Part shown: in pieces, positions 43,974 through 52,266 of the stretch | Numbering within the stretch: position 1 is the stretch's first letter | Layout of the letters: the number at the start of each line of letters is the position of its first letter | From: an uncultured Gammaproteobacteria bacterium | GTDB lineage: Bacteria > Pseudomonadota > Gammaproteobacteria > PS1 > Pseudothioglobaceae | Reading direction: 5' to 3' | DNA length: 63,830 nt | NCBI GenBank assembly: GCA_913057955.1 | Contig: CAJXOB010000004.1 | Coordinates: 1-63,830 of the forward strand | The notes under the pieces: generated by a model | Databases searched by the model: none | Seen by the model: only the letters and a program-made list of their open reading frames with translations | Told to the model about the DNA's origin: nothing | Translations under genes and position numbers: made by a program

Positions 43974-45281
43974 TTAATAGGCTAAGATTTTTTTCTTATT
44001 ATTTTGAATAGATTTTGTAAGTTTTGGTGACACCGAAACTGGCTCTTGATTTGCATAGTCTTCATGGTTCTTAGCCACTGACTCTAGATCATATAAGTAA
44101 TTAACCATCACCCCCCAAGAATCATCTAGAGCACTCTGATTAACATTTGCATCTGCATGAATTTTATAAAGAGATGCGCCATTACCAAGATGAAAATGAG
44201 CAACAGGATTAATTGCTTGACCATTTTTACGTTTAATTTGAGTTAAGTAATAATAAGTTAAACGATTTAAAGCTAAAGGATTTGGCTTGGCATTTTCACA
44301 GCACTCGCTAATATCATTCATTATATTTTCAGGTAGCTGTTTATCTTCCAATAGGTTTATTTTATTAGACCATTTCTTGAGGCCAGGAACAGGAGAGAGC
44401 GTTACAAACTGCTTGATTTGTTTAAACTCTTTCTCAATTTCAGTTACTACTTGTTTAATCAAAAAACTCCCAAACGAAACACCCTTGAGTCCCATCTGGC
44501 AATTGGAGATAGAATAAAAAACTGCCGTTGTGGCGGTTAAAGGCTCAATTGGTTTAATGCTTGTATCAAGTATTGGCATAATTGAATATGGCGTTTCATT
44601 CATCAATGCAACCTCAATAAAAATGAGAGGCTCATCTGGAAGTGCGGGATGAAAAAAAGCATACAACCTCCTATCATCTGCAGCCACTCTATTTTGTAAA
44701 TCCTCCCAATCTGAAATATCATGGACAGCTTCGTACTGCATGATTTTTTCCAACACTCGAGCACTTGTCGACCAATCAATACGCTCAAGTCTTAAAAATC
44801 CTCTATTAAACCAGGACTTAAATAAATGTACAAAATCAGAATCAAGTGATTTAAGCTCGGGAGAGTCTTTAATGCGTTCTAGCAGCGACTCCCTCATCTT
44901 TAAAAGCACTGATGTTCCATTTGGGACTTGATTTAACCTTCTAAGAAGCTCATGGCTCTTTGGTTCAATTAATTGATGAAGTTTTCTGAGTTGCCCTTCA
45001 TCATCAATATTTAATTCAATGATAGCTTTTTTGAGAGTAGGTCGATCTACGCCAAACTGGTCAAGTAACTGTAAAAAAAATGACTTTTTTTGCTCTTCTG
45101 AAAGAGTATTAAAATCTTCTAAAATTATTTTTGCAAGAGAGAATAAAGTTGCCTCACCATTTTTACTTACTAGCTGATTGCAAAGCTTAATAATAGTTTC
45201 AGGACTGGATACTTTCTTACTTGACCGCCCCATACGGATACGCTGAATAAGAGAGTTTAAAAAGTTTTGATGCTGAGTCAT
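43974..45281 (-). CDS. Malonyl-CoA decarboxylase
   Basis: The 435-residue protein has the complete malonyl-CoA decarboxylase pattern: helical N-terminal domain, RRLYAFFHPALPDEPLIFIEVAL, KGVSFGSFLIKQVV with the likely catalytic Ser, and PVAHFHLGNGASLYKIHADA with the catalytic His. It converts malonyl-CoA to acetyl-CoA and CO2. It lies downstream of cbbLSQO and two unknown ORFs on the same strand, with a 96-bp gap that contains a TATAAA, so it may have its own promoter. No malonyl-CoA synthetase is nearby. Confidence 0.9.
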   Translation of the reverse strand: MTQHQNFLNSLIQRIRMGRSSKKVSSPETIIKLCNQLVSKNGEATLFSLAKIILEDFNTLSEEQKKSFFLQLLDQFGVDRPTLKKAIIELNIDDEGQLRKLHQLIEPKSHELLRRLNQVPNGTSVLLKMRESLLERIKDSPELKSLDSDFVHLFKSWFNRGFLRLERIDWSTSARVLEKIMQYEAVHDISDWEDLQNRVAADDRRLYAFFHPALPDEPLIFIEVALMNETPYSIMPILDTSIKPIEPLTATTAVFYSISNCQMGLKGVSFGSFLIKQVVTEIEKEFKQIKQFVTLSPVPGLKKWSNKINLLEDKQLPENIMNDISECCENAKPNPLALNRLTYYYLTQIKRKNGQAINPVAHFHLGNGASLYKIHADANVNQSALDDSWGVMVNYLYDLESVAKNHEDYANQEPVSVSPKLTKSIQNNKKKILAY

Positions 45282-45377: not shown

Positions 45378-45911
45378 CTATTCAATTGAACTGAATCGAA
45401 AAACATTAACAGCGATATAGTCATTGTATGCAGCGCCTGATTGGAGCCAAGTCTTTGCCTTTAGGGCTGAAATTTTAGGGCTTAAATTATCTTCAATGTT
45501 TAGATATAAGCCATATTTAAAAGTATAGTCTTCTTCGGTTAAGACCAATAAATCACCATTTGAACTAATAAGGCTTTTCTCTGGTACACCTCCTTGCTGA
45601 GATACAAATGCAGCCTGGCCATACTCATCCATTAGGCTAGATAACTTAGCTTCAAAATATTCCTTACTAATAGGGCTGTGTTTATAATAATTGACATGCA
45701 AATCTTCAGCCTCTTCTAACAAATAACTTCTTAAATCTTCAACTGAAGAAAATACCTCGCCTTCAATCCAAAAAATAACAAACGCACCATTTGAATTTCC
45801 CAAGCCAAGCGATTGATCTTCAACCATTACTAGAGCAGAGCCGTCAAGTATCGACTGCAAAAAATCTTTGTCTAAACTTGTTATCTCTTCATTGAAGTGA
45901 CTTAGATTCAT
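45378..45911 (-). CDS. Unknown 177-residue protein in the cbb operon
   Basis: An acidic, apparently soluble protein without signal peptide, membrane helices or recognised motif. Features seen: LSHFNEEITSLDKDFLQSILDGSALV at the start, an FVIFWIEGEVFSSVEDLRSYLLEEAEDLHV stretch likely to be helix-rich, a central VSQQGGVPEKS loop and a final VNVFRFSSIE. It begins 12 bases after the 86-residue ORF, which overlaps cbbO, so it is probably part of cbbL-S-Q-O-orf-orf. A link to RuBisCO assembly or regulation is inferred from position alone. Confidence 0.65.
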   Translation of the reverse strand: MNLSHFNEEITSLDKDFLQSILDGSALVMVEDQSLGLGNSNGAFVIFWIEGEVFSSVEDLRSYLLEEAEDLHVNYYKHSPISKEYFEAKLSSLMDEYGQAAFVSQQGGVPEKSLISSNGDLLVLTEEDYTFKYGLYLNIEDNLSPKISALKAKTWLQSGAAYNDYIAVNVFRFSSIE

Positions 45912-45923
45912 AATTATTTCATC

Positions 45924-46184
45924 CTATCGTGATTGGAAAAGAAGTGACTTTATAGTTTGATAATTTGTAGCAATATTTCTTAATTCTTCTTCTCCTAGTT
46001 TATTACTAATAGCGCCCTCTTCAATCTCTATTACTTTGTCAGCATACATTCTTTTAAGTGTATTTGTTGTTGCTAATATTTCGTAAACACTTGGGGAATT
46101 CTTTTCTTTCCAGTCTTCTGGCAAAACATAAGGGTATTTTGGATCAAAATCTATTAATTTATCATCTCTTTCATTAACCATCAT
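45924..46184 (-). CDS. Unknown 86-residue protein overlapping cbbO
   Basis: The start ATG at 46184 overlaps the cbbO stop (ATGA); a second ATG directly follows. The product is short and charged: DFDPKYPYVLPEDWKEKNSP near the N-terminus, then predicted helices with NTLKRMYADKVIEIEEGAIS and a C-terminal LRNIATNYQTIKSLLFQSR. No family is recognised. Strict translational coupling to cbbO suggests a partner or regulator of the CbbQO complex, which is a hypothesis. Confidence 0.68.
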   Translation of the reverse strand: MMVNERDDKLIDFDPKYPYVLPEDWKEKNSPSVYEILATTNTLKRMYADKVIEIEEGAISNKLGEEELRNIATNYQTIKSLLFQSR

Positions 46185-48544
46185 TTAGTTAATGAGATAA
46201 ACAATTGAGGCAGTCTCTCCGGCAATTTTTGAATATTATCAATTACCATAAAACGATTTTTACCAAAAATTCTCGCAACATACTCATCGGCATGAGGGTC
46301 TAAACTAATGCAGAACGTTACAATGCCATGGCTTCGCAATTCTTCAACTGCTTTTTTTGCATCCATACGAAGATGCTGCGGGTCATCAACATCAATATCT
46401 GCAGGTTCTCCATCCGTTAAGATTAAAAGAATTCTCTTGGCTGAGGATTGGGTTAATAAGTCTACTCCAGCATGCCTAATTGCAGCGCCCATTCTAGTTG
46501 ATAGGCCACCTTTTATTCCTGCCAAACGACCCTTTACTTCATCATTAAAACTATACTGAAACGGCTTAAAGCGATAGTACTGAACATCGTGTCTTGAATC
46601 CGATGCAAATCCTGAAATAGTTAACTTATCCCCAATCTTGTCAATTGCCCATGATAGAAGTGAAGTGGCCTCTTTCATTAGCTCCAAAATTGTTTTATCA
46701 CTACCAAGAACCATATCATTGGTAGATTCAGATAAGTCCATTAGTAAGTTAACAGAGACATCTCTAATATGCTGCACTTTCTTTACATAAATCCTATCAG
46801 ATGGGGTTATGCCAGATCTGATATCTGCTAAAGCTGTTACGCAGGCATCAAGATCAAGCTCACTCCCTTCTTGTTGTTTCTTTAGTTTGACGAGACCTTG
46901 AGGCTGCATTCGGTCAATCGCATTTTTAAGTTGATTGGCAATAGGTTTGTGAGTTTTTAAAATTTTATTAATTAACTCTGGATCCCCTTTTCTCAAACGT
47001 CTTTCATACAGAGTTGCCCAGTTTGGCCGATAGAGCTGAAGCTGATAATCCCACTCATTGTAATGAAAAGGCTCACTTACTGGCTCTTTGCCTTCGACTT
47101 CATTTAGGCTTACACCATCTAACTCATCAGGAAAATACTCTGACTCTAGAGTCCAAATTTCTTGTGCATCATCGCCAGCAGTTTCAACATCAAGCTCGTT
47201 ATACATTTCCATAATATTAACATTTTTGCGCACCTGTCTTTGACTAACAGGGACATAATCATTGCCCTCTGACAACCAATCAAGCTCTTCATACTCCCAA
47301 ATATATCTATTATCATCTCTATATATAATTGGCGTTGATACAAGAGCGGAAGCGCTTATTTTCACATCTGTTTCAGTCTTAAGTAGCTCGTAATAATTCA
47401 TACCCAACTCATAGCTCATTGCTGATGATTCAGGCATTTTGGTCATTTTTTTAATAAATAACTTAAGAAAATCACTATTAAATGACTGTTTTGCTGTGTA
47501 TTTTTGATCTAATGCAGCCCTTGAAAAATCAACCAAATCAACTATAAAAGGATTTAACTCTTTTAAGTCCTCATCATCAGGATGAAGTGCAATCCAAGTT
47601 TTTTTCATACCTGGAAATTTTTTTAAAGTGTTCAACTCAACTCTTAAGTCTTCTATTAGAGAAACGCATGCAACTTGCAAAGGATTTAAGTCATCTCCTT
47701 TAAAAGCAACCCTAGTTTCCATAATATGAGCTGCGGCATGAGCACAAACTGCTCTATAGCAATCAATACCTGGAACAATTCTTCCAGAAGCATGCTTATA
47801 GTCATCATAAGCATCTGGAATATGCATTACTCCATACTCAATATAGGGCCTTAGACCTTTCTTAGTTTCATAGTCACCTGAAGTGGGTCGTAGAAAAAAA
47901 TCACGGTTATAAAATGCTCTAAGATAGAACTGCAACTTTCTTTGATTATCAATAAATAGTGTTCCTCGCCTCTCTTGCTCAAGTATTTGAATTGACTCCA
48001 TGCTACTTAATTCAAAATAGGCGATTTGAGCTTTAAAATCTCGTTTAAATGTTTCGGCTCCATATAGAACCCATCTTCTTAAACCACCAAGAGTAAGCTT
48101 ACTAGTCAACTGATCGATATTATTGAGCATTGGCCTCATACCTCTAGGGGCTAGAGCTATCATTCGCTCCATTAACCTAAGGTAGCCTTTTAATAAATCA
48201 AAGTCACTCATCCGCCTTGCAACGTTTGGAAGACTTGCAATCATCAACACCAAGACAGAGGCGGATGTTTGTGAAGACATTTTCATAATTGAAAATACAA
48301 TCTCACCAATTATTGACTCACCAACCTCCCTAACGACCATAGGCGTCTCCTCCAAGAAGGAGATAACCATGTCTTCACCTTTACCCATTGCATGTAGCGC
48401 ACCAGCACCATCTAAATAGACTTTAAGTCCATTTGGGGACATTACCTTAGATGCCTCAACAAAGCTGCCTGCTAGCGCATCATGAAGAATGTCAGAGGAA
48501 TCTCGAAACTTTTGTTCAAAATCCGAAAGTTGGACCGCACTCAT
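46181..48544 (-). CDS. cbbO: RuBisCO activase subunit CbbO
   Basis: CbbO pairs with the MoxR-type AAA+ protein CbbQ in a complex that removes inhibitory sugar phosphates from RuBisCO. The 787-residue protein has a long helical N-terminal part and a C-terminal von Willebrand factor A domain. The MIDAS is LLMDLSESTND, with Thr/Asp partners in LILTDGEPADID. The CbbO length and the position after cbbQ fit. Start is ten bases after cbbQ, and its stop overlaps an unknown ORF. Confidence 0.95.
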   Translation of the reverse strand: MSAVQLSDFEQKFRDSSDILHDALAGSFVEASKVMSPNGLKVYLDGAGALHAMGKGEDMVISFLEETPMVVREVGESIIGEIVFSIMKMSSQTSASVLVLMIASLPNVARRMSDFDLLKGYLRLMERMIALAPRGMRPMLNNIDQLTSKLTLGGLRRWVLYGAETFKRDFKAQIAYFELSSMESIQILEQERRGTLFIDNQRKLQFYLRAFYNRDFFLRPTSGDYETKKGLRPYIEYGVMHIPDAYDDYKHASGRIVPGIDCYRAVCAHAAAHIMETRVAFKGDDLNPLQVACVSLIEDLRVELNTLKKFPGMKKTWIALHPDDEDLKELNPFIVDLVDFSRAALDQKYTAKQSFNSDFLKLFIKKMTKMPESSAMSYELGMNYYELLKTETDVKISASALVSTPIIYRDDNRYIWEYEELDWLSEGNDYVPVSQRQVRKNVNIMEMYNELDVETAGDDAQEIWTLESEYFPDELDGVSLNEVEGKEPVSEPFHYNEWDYQLQLYRPNWATLYERRLRKGDPELINKILKTHKPIANQLKNAIDRMQPQGLVKLKKQQEGSELDLDACVTALADIRSGITPSDRIYVKKVQHIRDVSVNLLMDLSESTNDMVLGSDKTILELMKEATSLLSWAIDKIGDKLTISGFASDSRHDVQYYRFKPFQYSFNDEVKGRLAGIKGGLSTRMGAAIRHAGVDLLTQSSAKRILLILTDGEPADIDVDDPQHLRMDAKKAVEELRSHGIVTFCISLDPHADEYVARIFGKNRFMVIDNIQKLPERLPQLFISLTK

Positions 48545-48553
48545 TACGGGCCC

Positions 48554-49357
48554 TTAATCAAAAAAAGTATCGATAGCTGCATTAAGAGTATCGACAATAT
48601 CTAAGTCATCAGTAATAGGATTAACCATTGCAATTTTACAGGCAGACTTTTCATTTACCTTATTAGCGATCAATTGTCCTGCATAAATACACAACCTAGT
48701 TGATATTCCCTCGTCCAGCCCATGACCAACAAGGTTTCTAGCTCTTTGAGCTATCTGCACTAGTTTCAGGGCTATTTTTGGATCAACGCCTGACTCTTTA
48801 GAGATGATATGCGCTTCAGTTTTTTCATCAGGATATTGAAAGTTAAAACCACAGAATCTCTGCTTAGTGGATTGCTTTAGGTCTTTCATTAAATTTTGAT
48901 ACCCAGGGTTATAAGATATAACCAATTGAAAGTCAGGATGCGCCTCAATCAGCTCTCCTTTCTTATCAAGCGGTAAAGTCCGGCGATAATCAGTCAGCGG
49001 ATGGATCACGACTGTTGTATCTTGTCTCGCCTCTACGACCTCATCTAGATAGCAAATTCCTCCATAGCGAGCAGCCATAGCGAGAGGCCCATCTTTCCAA
49101 ATTGTGCCTTCCTTATCAAGAAGAAAGCGTCCAACTAAATCACTTGCCGACATATCTTCGTTGCAAGCAACTGTGATTAAGGGCTTGTCTAACTTATACG
49201 CCATATATTCTACAAACCTAGACTTGCCGCAACCAGTGGGCCCCTTTAGCATTACCGGCATACGATTCATATATGCAGCGGTATACATTTCTATTTCATC
49301 TTTCTGGGGTTGGTAGAATGGCTCTTTTGCAATTTTGTATTGATCTAATTCATTCAT
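48554..49357 (-). CDS. cbbQ: RuBisCO activase AAA+ subunit CbbQ
   Basis: CbbQ is a MoxR-family AAA+ ATPase. The 267-residue protein has Walker A KGPTGCGKSRFVEYMA, Walker B CYLDEVVEAR, the HPLTDYRR segment with the conserved sensor region and the C-terminal RLCIYAGQLI. It is separated from cbbS by a hairpin with a T-tract, so it is likely made at lower level than RuBisCO. It probably works as a hexamer on CbbL with CbbO. Confidence 0.96.
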   Translation of the reverse strand: MNELDQYKIAKEPFYQPQKDEIEMYTAAYMNRMPVMLKGPTGCGKSRFVEYMAYKLDKPLITVACNEDMSASDLVGRFLLDKEGTIWKDGPLAMAARYGGICYLDEVVEARQDTTVVIHPLTDYRRTLPLDKKGELIEAHPDFQLVISYNPGYQNLMKDLKQSTKQRFCGFNFQYPDEKTEAHIISKESGVDPKIALKLVQIAQRARNLVGHGLDEGISTRLCIYAGQLIANKVNEKSACKIAMVNPITDDLDIVDTLNAAIDTFFD

Positions 49358-49374: not shown

Positions 49375-49406
49375 AAAAAAAAACCCCTGCACTTAGACAG
49401 GGGTTT
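49375..49406 (-). terminator. Terminator hairpin between cbbS and cbbQ
   Basis: On the minus strand AAACCCCTG pairs with CAGGGGTTT over an eight-base loop, followed by an unbroken T-tract. It lies about 30 bp after cbbS and before cbbQ. A partial terminator would let cbbLS dominate while passing some transcripts to cbbQO; no obvious promoter for cbbQ is seen in the 80-bp gap. Confidence 0.88.
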
Positions 49407-49436: not shown

Positions 49437-49796
49437 TTATTTAAATCCTTTGCCTCTGTAAATAACCATCGATGCGCCCTGTGATTGAGCGTAATTATCG
49501 TAACCAATTAATCGAACATGATTGTCTGGATTAGCATCATGGCACTCCTTACATTCAGCAAGAATTGTATCAACATCTGTCTCACCAAATAAAGGAAGTT
49601 TCCACATATACCAATAATTATCCATGGCATTTTCCACTTCAGTGTGCTCAACGCCAGGATTATAGCCCTGATCTACGATGTACTGAACTTGCTGACGAAT
49701 CTGTTTCTCGTTCATTGCCGGGAGATATGAAAATGTTTCAAACTTTCTGCTGGCATTATCACCAAGGCGTGATGGGTAGTCTTGAACTTTGCTCAT
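49437..49796 (-). CDS. cbbS: RuBisCO form I small subunit
   Basis: The 119-residue product has the family N-terminus ending [23 protein letters not shown], the [10 protein letters not shown] region, [40 protein letters not shown] and the terminal [12 protein letters not shown]. It lacks N-terminal or C-terminal extensions and the window has no carboxysome genes. It follows cbbL by 48 bp. Form IA type. Confidence 0.97.
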
Positions 49797-49844: not shown

Positions 49845-51266
49845 TTACTTGTGTTGAATATCTAGCTTATCAACTGTATCAAACTCAAATTTAATCTCTT
49901 TCCATGTTTCCATTGCAATTTTAAGTTCAGGCGAGTGCTTTGCAGCACTAGTCAGAATCTCCTTTGACTCTTTTTCTAATTCTCGTCCCGCATTCCTTGC
50001 TTCTACACAAGCTTCAACTGCAACACGATTTGCAGCAGCACCTGCTGCATTACCCCAAGGATGACCTAGAGTGCCGCCGCCAAACTGAAGAACCGAATCA
50101 TCTCCAAATATATTCACTAGTGCTGGCATATGCCATACGTGAATTCCCCCTGAAGCTACAGGCAGCATCCCTGGCATTGAACCAAAGTCCTGGTCAAAGA
50201 AAATACCTCTTGAGCGGTCTTCTTTAATAAAACTATCGCGCATACAGTCAATCCAACCCAAGGTTGATTCACGATCCCCTTCAAGCTTTCCTACAACAGT
50301 GCCTGAGTGCATATGATCTCCGCCAGAAAGGCGTAAGCACTTAGCAAGTACTCTAAAATGAATGCCGTGGTTTGGGTTCCTGTCAACAACTGCATGCATT
50401 GCTCTATGAATATGAAGCAGCAAACCGTTATCTCGACACCAATTTGCAAGACCTGTATTCGCTGTAAAGCCAGCCGTAAAGAAATCATGCATAATGATTG
50501 GAGTTCCTAGTTCTTTAGCATATTCAGCTCTTTTGTACATTTCTTCAGGCGTGGGGGCTGTAACATTTAAGTAGTGGCCCTTCCTTTCGCCTGTTTCTTT
50601 TTCGGCTTTTTCGATTGCATCTTGAACAAAACCGAAACGATCCCTCCAACGCATGAAAGGCTGTGAGTTTACGTTTTCATCATCTTTTGTAAAGTCTAAT
50701 CCACCACGAAGTCCTTCATAGCAAGCACGACCATAATTTTTAGCCGATAAGCCAAGCTTAGGCTTAATAGTACAGCCCAACATTGGGCGGCCATATTTAT
50801 TCATCTTATCTCTTTCAACCTGAATTCCATTTGGAGGACCCCCACAAGTCATAACATAGGCAATTGGGAAGCGAATATCTTCAAGCCTTAGTGCTCTTAG
50901 TGCTTTGAAGCCAAATACATTTCCAACAAGCGAGGTAAGAACGTTAACGATTGACCCTTCTTCAAATAAATCAATTGGGTATGCAATAAAAGCATAAATA
51001 GCATCATCTGAACCTGGAACATCTTCAATCCTATAAGCGCGGCCTTTATAGTGGTCAAGATCTGTTAACAAATCAGTCCATACGGTAGTCCATGTTCCTG
51101 TTGAAGATTCGGCTGCTACAGCAGCTGCAACCTCTTCTCTTGGAACGCCTGGTTGAGGCGTAATTTTAAAGCAAGCAAGAATATCAGTGTCTTTTGGCTC
51201 ATACTCAGGCATCCAATATGTGTCGCGGTATTCCTTTACACCTGCATCGTAACCTTTCTTAGCCAT
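49845..51266 (-). CDS. cbbL: RuBisCO form I large subunit
   Basis: The large subunit fixes CO2 onto ribulose-1,5-bisphosphate in the Calvin cycle. The 473-residue protein shows the catalytic Lys168 in [11 protein letters not shown], the carbamylated Lys194 with Asp196 and Glu197 in [14 protein letters not shown], and the loop 6 [12 protein letters not shown]. Together with cbbS, cbbQ and cbbO it forms a form IA(q)-type operon. The N-terminus [23 protein letters not shown] is characteristic of form I, not form II. A LysR gene, cbbR, is divergent. Confidence 0.98.
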
Positions 51267-51369: not shown

Positions 51370-52266
51370 ATGATTAATTACACATTAAAGCAGCTCTACA
51401 GCTATGAATCAGTCATTAGATTAGGGGGATTTACAAGCGCAAGTAAAGAGCTTCATATCACTCAGCCAGCAGTATATATGCAGATACAACAGCTCCAAGA
51501 AAGCATTGGAGCAAAATTATTTGATATTAATGGAAAAAAAATCAGCGCTACATTTCTTGGAAAAAAACTTTATGAAACTGCAGTAAAAACTATTATCACA
51601 CTTGAAAATTCAAAACTTGAAATGGATGAAATACTGAGTCCAGATTCGGGCCATCTTCAAATAGCAGTTGCGACAACTGCAAATTCATTTATTAGCACCT
51701 TACTAGCAAAGTTTAAAAAAGAGTTTCCTAAAATGACCTTCTATATTGATGTTACAAATAGGAAGTCGCTTCTTAACAACCTAAAAAACAACAATGCTGA
51801 TCTCGTAATAATGGGAGAGCCGCCAAAAAATATTCCATTAATCTCTCAAGCATTTATGAAAAACCCTTTGATTGCAATCGCACACCCTGAGAATGAACTG
51901 TTAAATAAAAAAAAGGTCACAATTAAAGATTTAGCCAAAGAGACTTTACTTACAAGAGAAGTTGGCTCAGGCACTCGTATAACTATTGAAAAGTTTACCG
52001 GTTTAAATTTTAATTCAGATATTCAAATTAACTCGAATGAAGCTATTGTTGAGGCTGTTCAAGCAGGATTAGGGATTGGATTTGTTTCAATGCATTCTGT
52101 TAGCCTTCAGCTTAAAAATAAAATCATTAGACAACTAAATGTTGATCCATTCCCAATAATTAGGCAGTGGCATATAGTTCATCATGCTGATGCGGAGCTA
52201 TCTCCAATTGCTAGGAGATTTAAGCAGTTTGTGATTGAAAATACTAAGGTTGAAAAATATCTATAA
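51370..52266 (+). CDS. cbbR: LysR family regulator CbbR-like
   Basis: The 298-residue protein has an N-terminal LysR helix-turn-helix (TLKQLYSYESVIRLGGFTSASKELHITQPAVYMQIQQLQ region) and a C-terminal effector domain. GSGTRITIEKF, typical of CbbR ligand pocket loops, and GLGIGFVSMHSV are present. Its position divergent from cbbL is the canonical arrangement for CbbR, which activates cbb genes in response to NADPH or phosphorylated metabolites. The stop converges on argJ. Confidence 0.9.
   Translation: MINYTLKQLYSYESVIRLGGFTSASKELHITQPAVYMQIQQLQESIGAKLFDINGKKISATFLGKKLYETAVKTIITLENSKLEMDEILSPDSGHLQIAVATTANSFISTLLAKFKKEFPKMTFYIDVTNRKSLLNNLKNNNADLVIMGEPPKNIPLISQAFMKNPLIAIAHPENELLNKKKVTIKDLAKETLLTREVGSGTRITIEKFTGLNFNSDIQINSNEAIVEAVQAGLGIGFVSMHSVSLQLKNKIIRQLNVDPFPIIRQWHIVHHADAELSPIARRFKQFVIENTKVEKYL

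Follow-up and report, generated by a model that had tools for sequence, protein, structure and literature searches.

Marine SUP05-type bacteria use a carboxysome-free form IA RuBisCO for dark carbon fixation. The window analysed here is a contig of 63.8 kb from the 1.57-Mb genome of a marine sulfur-oxidising bacterium, and those of its close relatives that have names belong to the SUP05 cluster, Thioglobus and Pseudothioglobus. It carries a cbbLSQO operon in which two small open reading frames, ORF86 and ORF177, follow cbbO. The locus raises the question of whether their products serve the CbbQO activase, RuBisCO itself, or neither. A preliminary description had suggested that one or both may be accessory factors for CbbQO.

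Two small genes downstream of cbbO

The genes and features of the locus are the following:

51370–52266, plus strand: LysR-type regulator in the cbbR position, divergent from cbbL
49845–51266, minus strand: cbbL, form I large subunit with the C-terminus KLDIQHK
49437–49796, minus strand: cbbS, RuBisCO small subunit
49381–49406, minus strand: terminator-like hairpin with a T-run between cbbS and cbbQ, a pattern match alone, with a scan count not above that of shuffled sequences
48554–49357, minus strand: cbbQ, MoxR-type AAA+ motor (Pfam AAA_5 and CbbQ_C)
46181–48544, minus strand: cbbO, vWA-domain adaptor of the CbbQO RuBisCO activase (Pfam VWA)
45924–46184, minus strand: ORF86, 86 aa, its ATG start overlapping the cbbO stop as ATGA
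45378–45911, minus strand: ORF177, 177 aa, 12 bp downstream of ORF86
43974–45281, minus strand: malonyl-CoA decarboxylase gene, next downstream of ORF177 and serving as an internal control

Pfam searches confirmed the operon order cbbL-S-Q-O, and the coordinates, strand, protein lengths, 4-nt ATGA overlap, 12-bp gap and acidity of ORF177 given in the preliminary description all held. An AGGA-like ribosome site lies upstream of ORF177. We assigned the cassette to form IAq because CbbL ends in KLDIQHK and cbbLS are followed directly by cbbQ and cbbO, with no carboxysome genes alongside; both the form IAq definition and the tie between CbbQO and a KLDxxHK or KLDxxxR end of CbbL come from PMC8718961. 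ORF86 and ORF177 thus share operon and strand with a CbbQO-type activase, known from form IAq and IAc clusters, for which the KLDxxHK motif seen in the window CbbL is required (PMC4660213 and PMC8718961). Unlike the activase subunits, the two ORFs belong to neither the AAA+ nor the vWA proteins, and hardly any other CbbQO cluster contains them. The hairpin between cbbS and cbbQ suggests that cbbQ, cbbO, ORF86 and ORF177 are probably made below the level of cbbLS. It is a strong hairpin and could also act as an attenuator setting the ratio of RuBisCO to activase.

Both ORFs are genuine protein-coding genes under purifying selection, with position and protein sequence conserved in many relatives. 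Pairwise NG86 estimates of dN/dS, over the pairs with usable dS, were ~0.11–0.27 for ORF86 and ~0.05–0.15 for ORF177, and cbbO and cbbQ gave values below these. Across 28 homologues of ORF86, with identity down to ~50%, 19 residues are invariant. The preliminary description was to be abandoned if conservation at the protein level were lacking; the dN/dS values, well below 1 for both ORFs, show that it is present. We attach next to no credence to the idea that the ORFs are spurious or decaying frames, which conservation and low dN/dS in two independent frames refute and to which an ORF86 pseudogene in two of 83 genomes lends no weighty support.

The description of both proteins as unrecognised also stands, as searches of Pfam, NCBIfam, PHROGs and the PDB yielded no credible match for either. 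ORF86 is acidic (pI 4.8) and has a conserved N-terminus, F-x-P-x-YP..LP.DW....P..YE, that is predicted to be disordered; AlphaFold2 places after it a two-helix hairpin (residues 33–55 and 61–83, pLDDT >90). Compared with PDB folds, this model proved a generic helix hairpin (best Foldseek E ~0.5) with no specific match. The predicted combination of a disordered, conserved N-terminus and a helical hairpin suggests that ORF86 is probably a binding or adaptor protein. ORF177 (pI 4.3, net charge −17) belongs to an unnamed gammaproteobacterial family with the conserved C-terminus FKYG...WLQSG.AYNDYIAVNVFRFSSIE, and its structure model was unusable (mean pLDDT 42).

Several candidate similarities were rejected. 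PDB sequence matches of ORF177 (galectin and others) covered only short stretches and were set aside. A Cpf1 REC2 domain reported for one ORF86 homologue (E = 2e-4) fell under the family cut-off, and the window protein had no such match. Seven tblastn matches of ORF86 to DsrK at 29% trace to a common LPEDWKEK peptide, within the YPxxLPEDWKEK sequence of the DsrK N-terminus; the two profiles aligned over just 17 columns with 47% probability, so that we treat this as a resemblance of motifs and not as homology.

Distribution in the window's family and losses of RuBisCO

RuBisCO and CbbO searches were run on the same 83 genomes of the window's order, all of one family (Thioglobaceae, to judge from the relatives that have names). 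Of these genomes, 30 carry an intact ORF86, and two, G040 and G080, a broken one. Form I cbbL and a type-A CbbO, in a carboxysome-free cbbLSQO cassette, accompany every intact copy, the cbbL of G063 being a contig-edge piece. Intact ORF86 was found in 30 of the 34 form IAq genomes and in none of the other 49, a split for which p = 1e-18 (30/4 vs 0/49) overstates independence, the genomes being related. The four form IAq genomes without an intact copy comprise G012 and G032, where it is absent; G040, where a pseudogene accompanies apparently intact cbbL, cbbS, cbbQ and cbbO; and G057, whose contig stops 230 bp past cbbO.

None of the 27 form-II-only genomes carries ORF86. At the form II loci inspected (L094–L097 and L100), cbbM-QO fills the same slot, between cbbR and moa genes, that holds cbbLSQO in relatives, and RuBisCO cassettes have apparently been swapped at this one site. 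Another type of unnamed small ORF follows the form II cbbO in L095 (5485–5874) and L097 (8192–8584). Intact ORF86 is likewise missing from the carboxysomal genomes of the family, whose clusters contain CsoS2, CsoSCA, EutN/CcmL and, instead of ORF86, a PCD-like gene.

The link to cbbO proposed in the preliminary description is conserved in many relatives, with no more than ~25 bp between cbbO and ORF86 in 25 of the 30 genomes; it is not strict, since an insertion or contig break separates the two in the other five. Where other genes have come to lie between the two, ORF86 is still intact. A MazE/PIN-type toxin–antitoxin pair occupies this position in L086 (9611–10284), L091 (4789–5417) and L093 (987–1615). 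A second ORF86 copy, broken and partial, lies far from the RuBisCO locus in one genome (G056:C1:1450351-1450434, L138).

Within the family, ORF177 is confined to the window's genus, where 13 genomes have it; 11 of these also carry ORF86. G012 and G032 keep RuBisCO, CbbQO and ORF177 without ORF86, and G009, G010 and G017 keep ORF86 without ORF177; RuBisCO has been kept without ORF86 in one clade of the window's order. Either can thus disappear singly from genomes that retain RuBisCO and CbbQO, so that ORF86 and ORF177 are separately dispensable.

Two genomes act as natural experiments. G016 and G008, the latter a single contig and 99% complete, have no RuBisCO anywhere in the genome, yet full-length cbbQO remains in the usual slot (L082, 4166–7356, in G016; L081, 5236–8409, in G008), while ORF86 and ORF177 are both gone. 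Trees of the flanking genes and of CbbQO keep the two genomes apart and put G016 among RuBisCO-bearing relatives, some nodes having low support, and for this reason two independent losses of RuBisCO are likely. Deletion scars record this history: G016 retains a cbbS tail before cbbQ (MVIYQGKGYK*; 129 bp, 81% identity, E 2e-28), and G008 an ORF177 3' tail after cbbO (VNVFRCSSIE*). A further genome, G080, no longer has cbbLSQO in the slot; its ORF86 is a pseudogene, next to a thioredoxin-TPR gene that is intact. The malonyl-CoA decarboxylase gene is retained in G008, G016 and the form II genome G022, which counts against a simple regional deletion. Taken together, the co-losses, swaps and scars indicate that the ORF86/ORF177 pair tracks form I RuBisCO through gains and losses within the family, and not CbbQO. 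Between G008 and G016, dN/dS was 0.025 for CbbQ and 0.09 for CbbO, on branches longer than in relatives, suggesting either slow decay of the RuBisCO-less cbbQO or a CbbQO role beyond RuBisCO.

Relatives in the wider class

Among 369 genomes sampled across the class, ~100 have a near-full-length CbbO (rows of at least ~840 bits, counted by hand), but ORF86 was recovered from only two, both Thioglobaceae, and, remotely, from G273. It is missing from nearly all other sampled gammaproteobacteria with cbbLSQO. Because only these two Thioglobaceae stand against ~100 CbbO genomes, ORF86 is not generally needed. When the ORF86 profile was widened over the class, it returned noise, with the exception of G273, where the remote homologue is unlinked to cbbO.

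The lead from G273 led to a remote ORF86-like family. In the family of G273 (f54, possibly Thiomicrospiraceae), ORF86-like proteins occur in 22 of 63 genomes. One of them, G458 (L226), has a true ORF86 orthologue adjoining cbbO, which may reflect transfer or a binning error; the other 21 have standalone proteins of 93–138 residues without common neighbours. These share with ORF86 71 homologous columns (hhalign 96.8%), the motif P-x-x-W-x(5)-P-[ST]-x-Y-E...T..T and the helix pair, but differ in an N-terminus 20–30 residues longer, a conserved Cys and a location away from cbbO. No relative of this remote family was found in plasmid records. In L238, L241 and L243, standalone ORF86-family genes lie beside genes for DabA/DabB-like inorganic-carbon transporters (judged from the sequence start), once also near cbbLS.

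Relatives of ORF177 were found in seven other genomes of the class sample, all CbbO-positive. The relative adjoins cbbO only in G273 (39% identity); the remaining six genomes, from several families, have standalone homologues with no neighbours in common. Homologues without a cbbO neighbour, which the preliminary description had taken as a sign against its proposal, therefore exist for both proteins among distant relatives, and not among close orthologues.

These standalone homologues, of ORF86 in 21 genomes of one other family and of ORF177 in six genomes of several, would fit an unrelated role in autotrophic or sulfur metabolism, with the ORFs as mere passengers of the cassette. We consider this somewhat unlikely, given the repeated loss alongside RuBisCO while the malonyl-CoA decarboxylase gene and cbbQO stay. 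In addition, all eight ORF177 genomes of the class sample have a near-full-length CbbO, compared with ~100 of 369 overall, although shared ancestry may explain this.

Other small genes were seen in RuBisCO operons of the class. Between cbbS and cbbQ, many gammaproteobacteria (L141, L142, L144, L146, L147, L149, L150 and L085–L093) have a conserved ORF of 104–125 aa (YVGI.NEINGGMT.IGKIIRDAWVF...), which is absent from the window and had no Pfam match in the two instances tested. Unnamed small ORFs of another type (MTTRIHDMPVY...) lie right after cbbO in other gammaproteobacteria (L142, 5036–5389; L144, 5207–5611; L149, 4732–5097).

Possible roles beside form IA RuBisCO

The distribution rules out ORF86 as a universal CbbQO subunit. 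Neither ORF is present wherever CbbQO is: both are absent with the CbbQO of form II, of carboxysomal form I, of the two RuBisCO-less lineages and of nearly all other gammaproteobacteria sampled. The proposal of accessory factors for CbbQO is therefore upheld in that the ORFs are real genes of a form I RuBisCO cassette, and is not supported for CbbQO as such. A narrower version makes ORF86, and perhaps ORF177, a dedicated partner of CbbO or CbbQ, for example a vWA-domain ligand or regulator tuning the activase on form I only. The ATGA coupling to cbbO, the position of both ORFs on the activase side of the terminator-like hairpin and the type-A CbbO that always accompanies ORF86 in the family (the G080 pseudogene excepted) are in line with such a partner; we nevertheless regard it as unlikely, given the same series of CbbQO clusters that do without the ORFs, most other cbbLSQO operons included.

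Small proteins encoded in RuBisCO operons include RbcX, Raf1 and the PCD-like acRAF of alpha-carboxysomes, to which the ORFs can be likened in this respect; RbcX is all-helical. ORF86 could be a small helical protein that assists the assembly or folding of the form IA L8S8 enzyme, similar to RbcX or acRAF in its work and unrelated to them. It follows cbbLS through losses and swaps, is missing where the carboxysome operon supplies its own acRAF-like gene, and is predicted to be all-helical. In some Thioglobus-type genomes it is also followed by a thioredoxin-TPR gene and groES/groEL (L012, 4614–7632; L172, 291–3045), a neighbourhood that would suit assembly, but this linkage is not general. RuBisCO moreover persists without ORF86 in G012 and G032, and neither ORF matches the Pfam families of RbcX, Raf1 and acRAF, nor does ORF86 match their sequences or folds in the PDB. 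On balance, an assembly factor of this kind appears improbable.

The reading that we prefer, and to which we give an even chance, is that ORF86 and ORF177 are accessory factors of form IAq RuBisCO that are optional, specific to this lineage and useful only when the form I enzyme is present. The ORFs are coding and conserved; in most genomes they are translationally coupled to cbbO or lie close to it, and their gains and losses go with cbbLS rather than with cbbQO. As accessory factors, they would be made at an activase-like, sub-stoichiometric level and would bind the form I enzyme or a RuBisCO-engaged CbbQO complex. ORF86 may dock as an adaptor through its flexible but conserved N-terminal motif and its helical hairpin, and help in the assembly, stability or reactivation of form I RuBisCO; ORF177 would serve the same system as another factor, dispensable independently of ORF86. 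Neither linkage nor co-loss is proof that either protein interacts with RuBisCO or CbbQO.

A more specific proposal, which we advance tentatively, is that ORF86 represents the RuBisCO-dedicated branch of an undescribed family of small helical-hairpin proteins which, in chemoautotrophs without carboxysomes, bind either form IA RuBisCO itself or its CbbQO-engaged state; ORF177 would then be another new factor. The searched passages of three papers on CbbQO (PMC4660213, PMC8718961 and PMC5506194) contain no mention of ORF86 or ORF177.

Genomes that have lost RuBisCO yet keep cbbQO also prompt one to ask what job CbbQO does there. Overall, the gain and loss of these two unnamed small proteins follow the carboxysome-free form IA RuBisCO rather than its activase. 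Apart from CbbQO, we know of no auxiliary or assembly factor described as dedicated to this enzyme; if the more specific proposal is true, ORF86 would be the first assembly or adaptor factor dedicated to form IA RuBisCO without a carboxysome, and ORF177 a second new factor.
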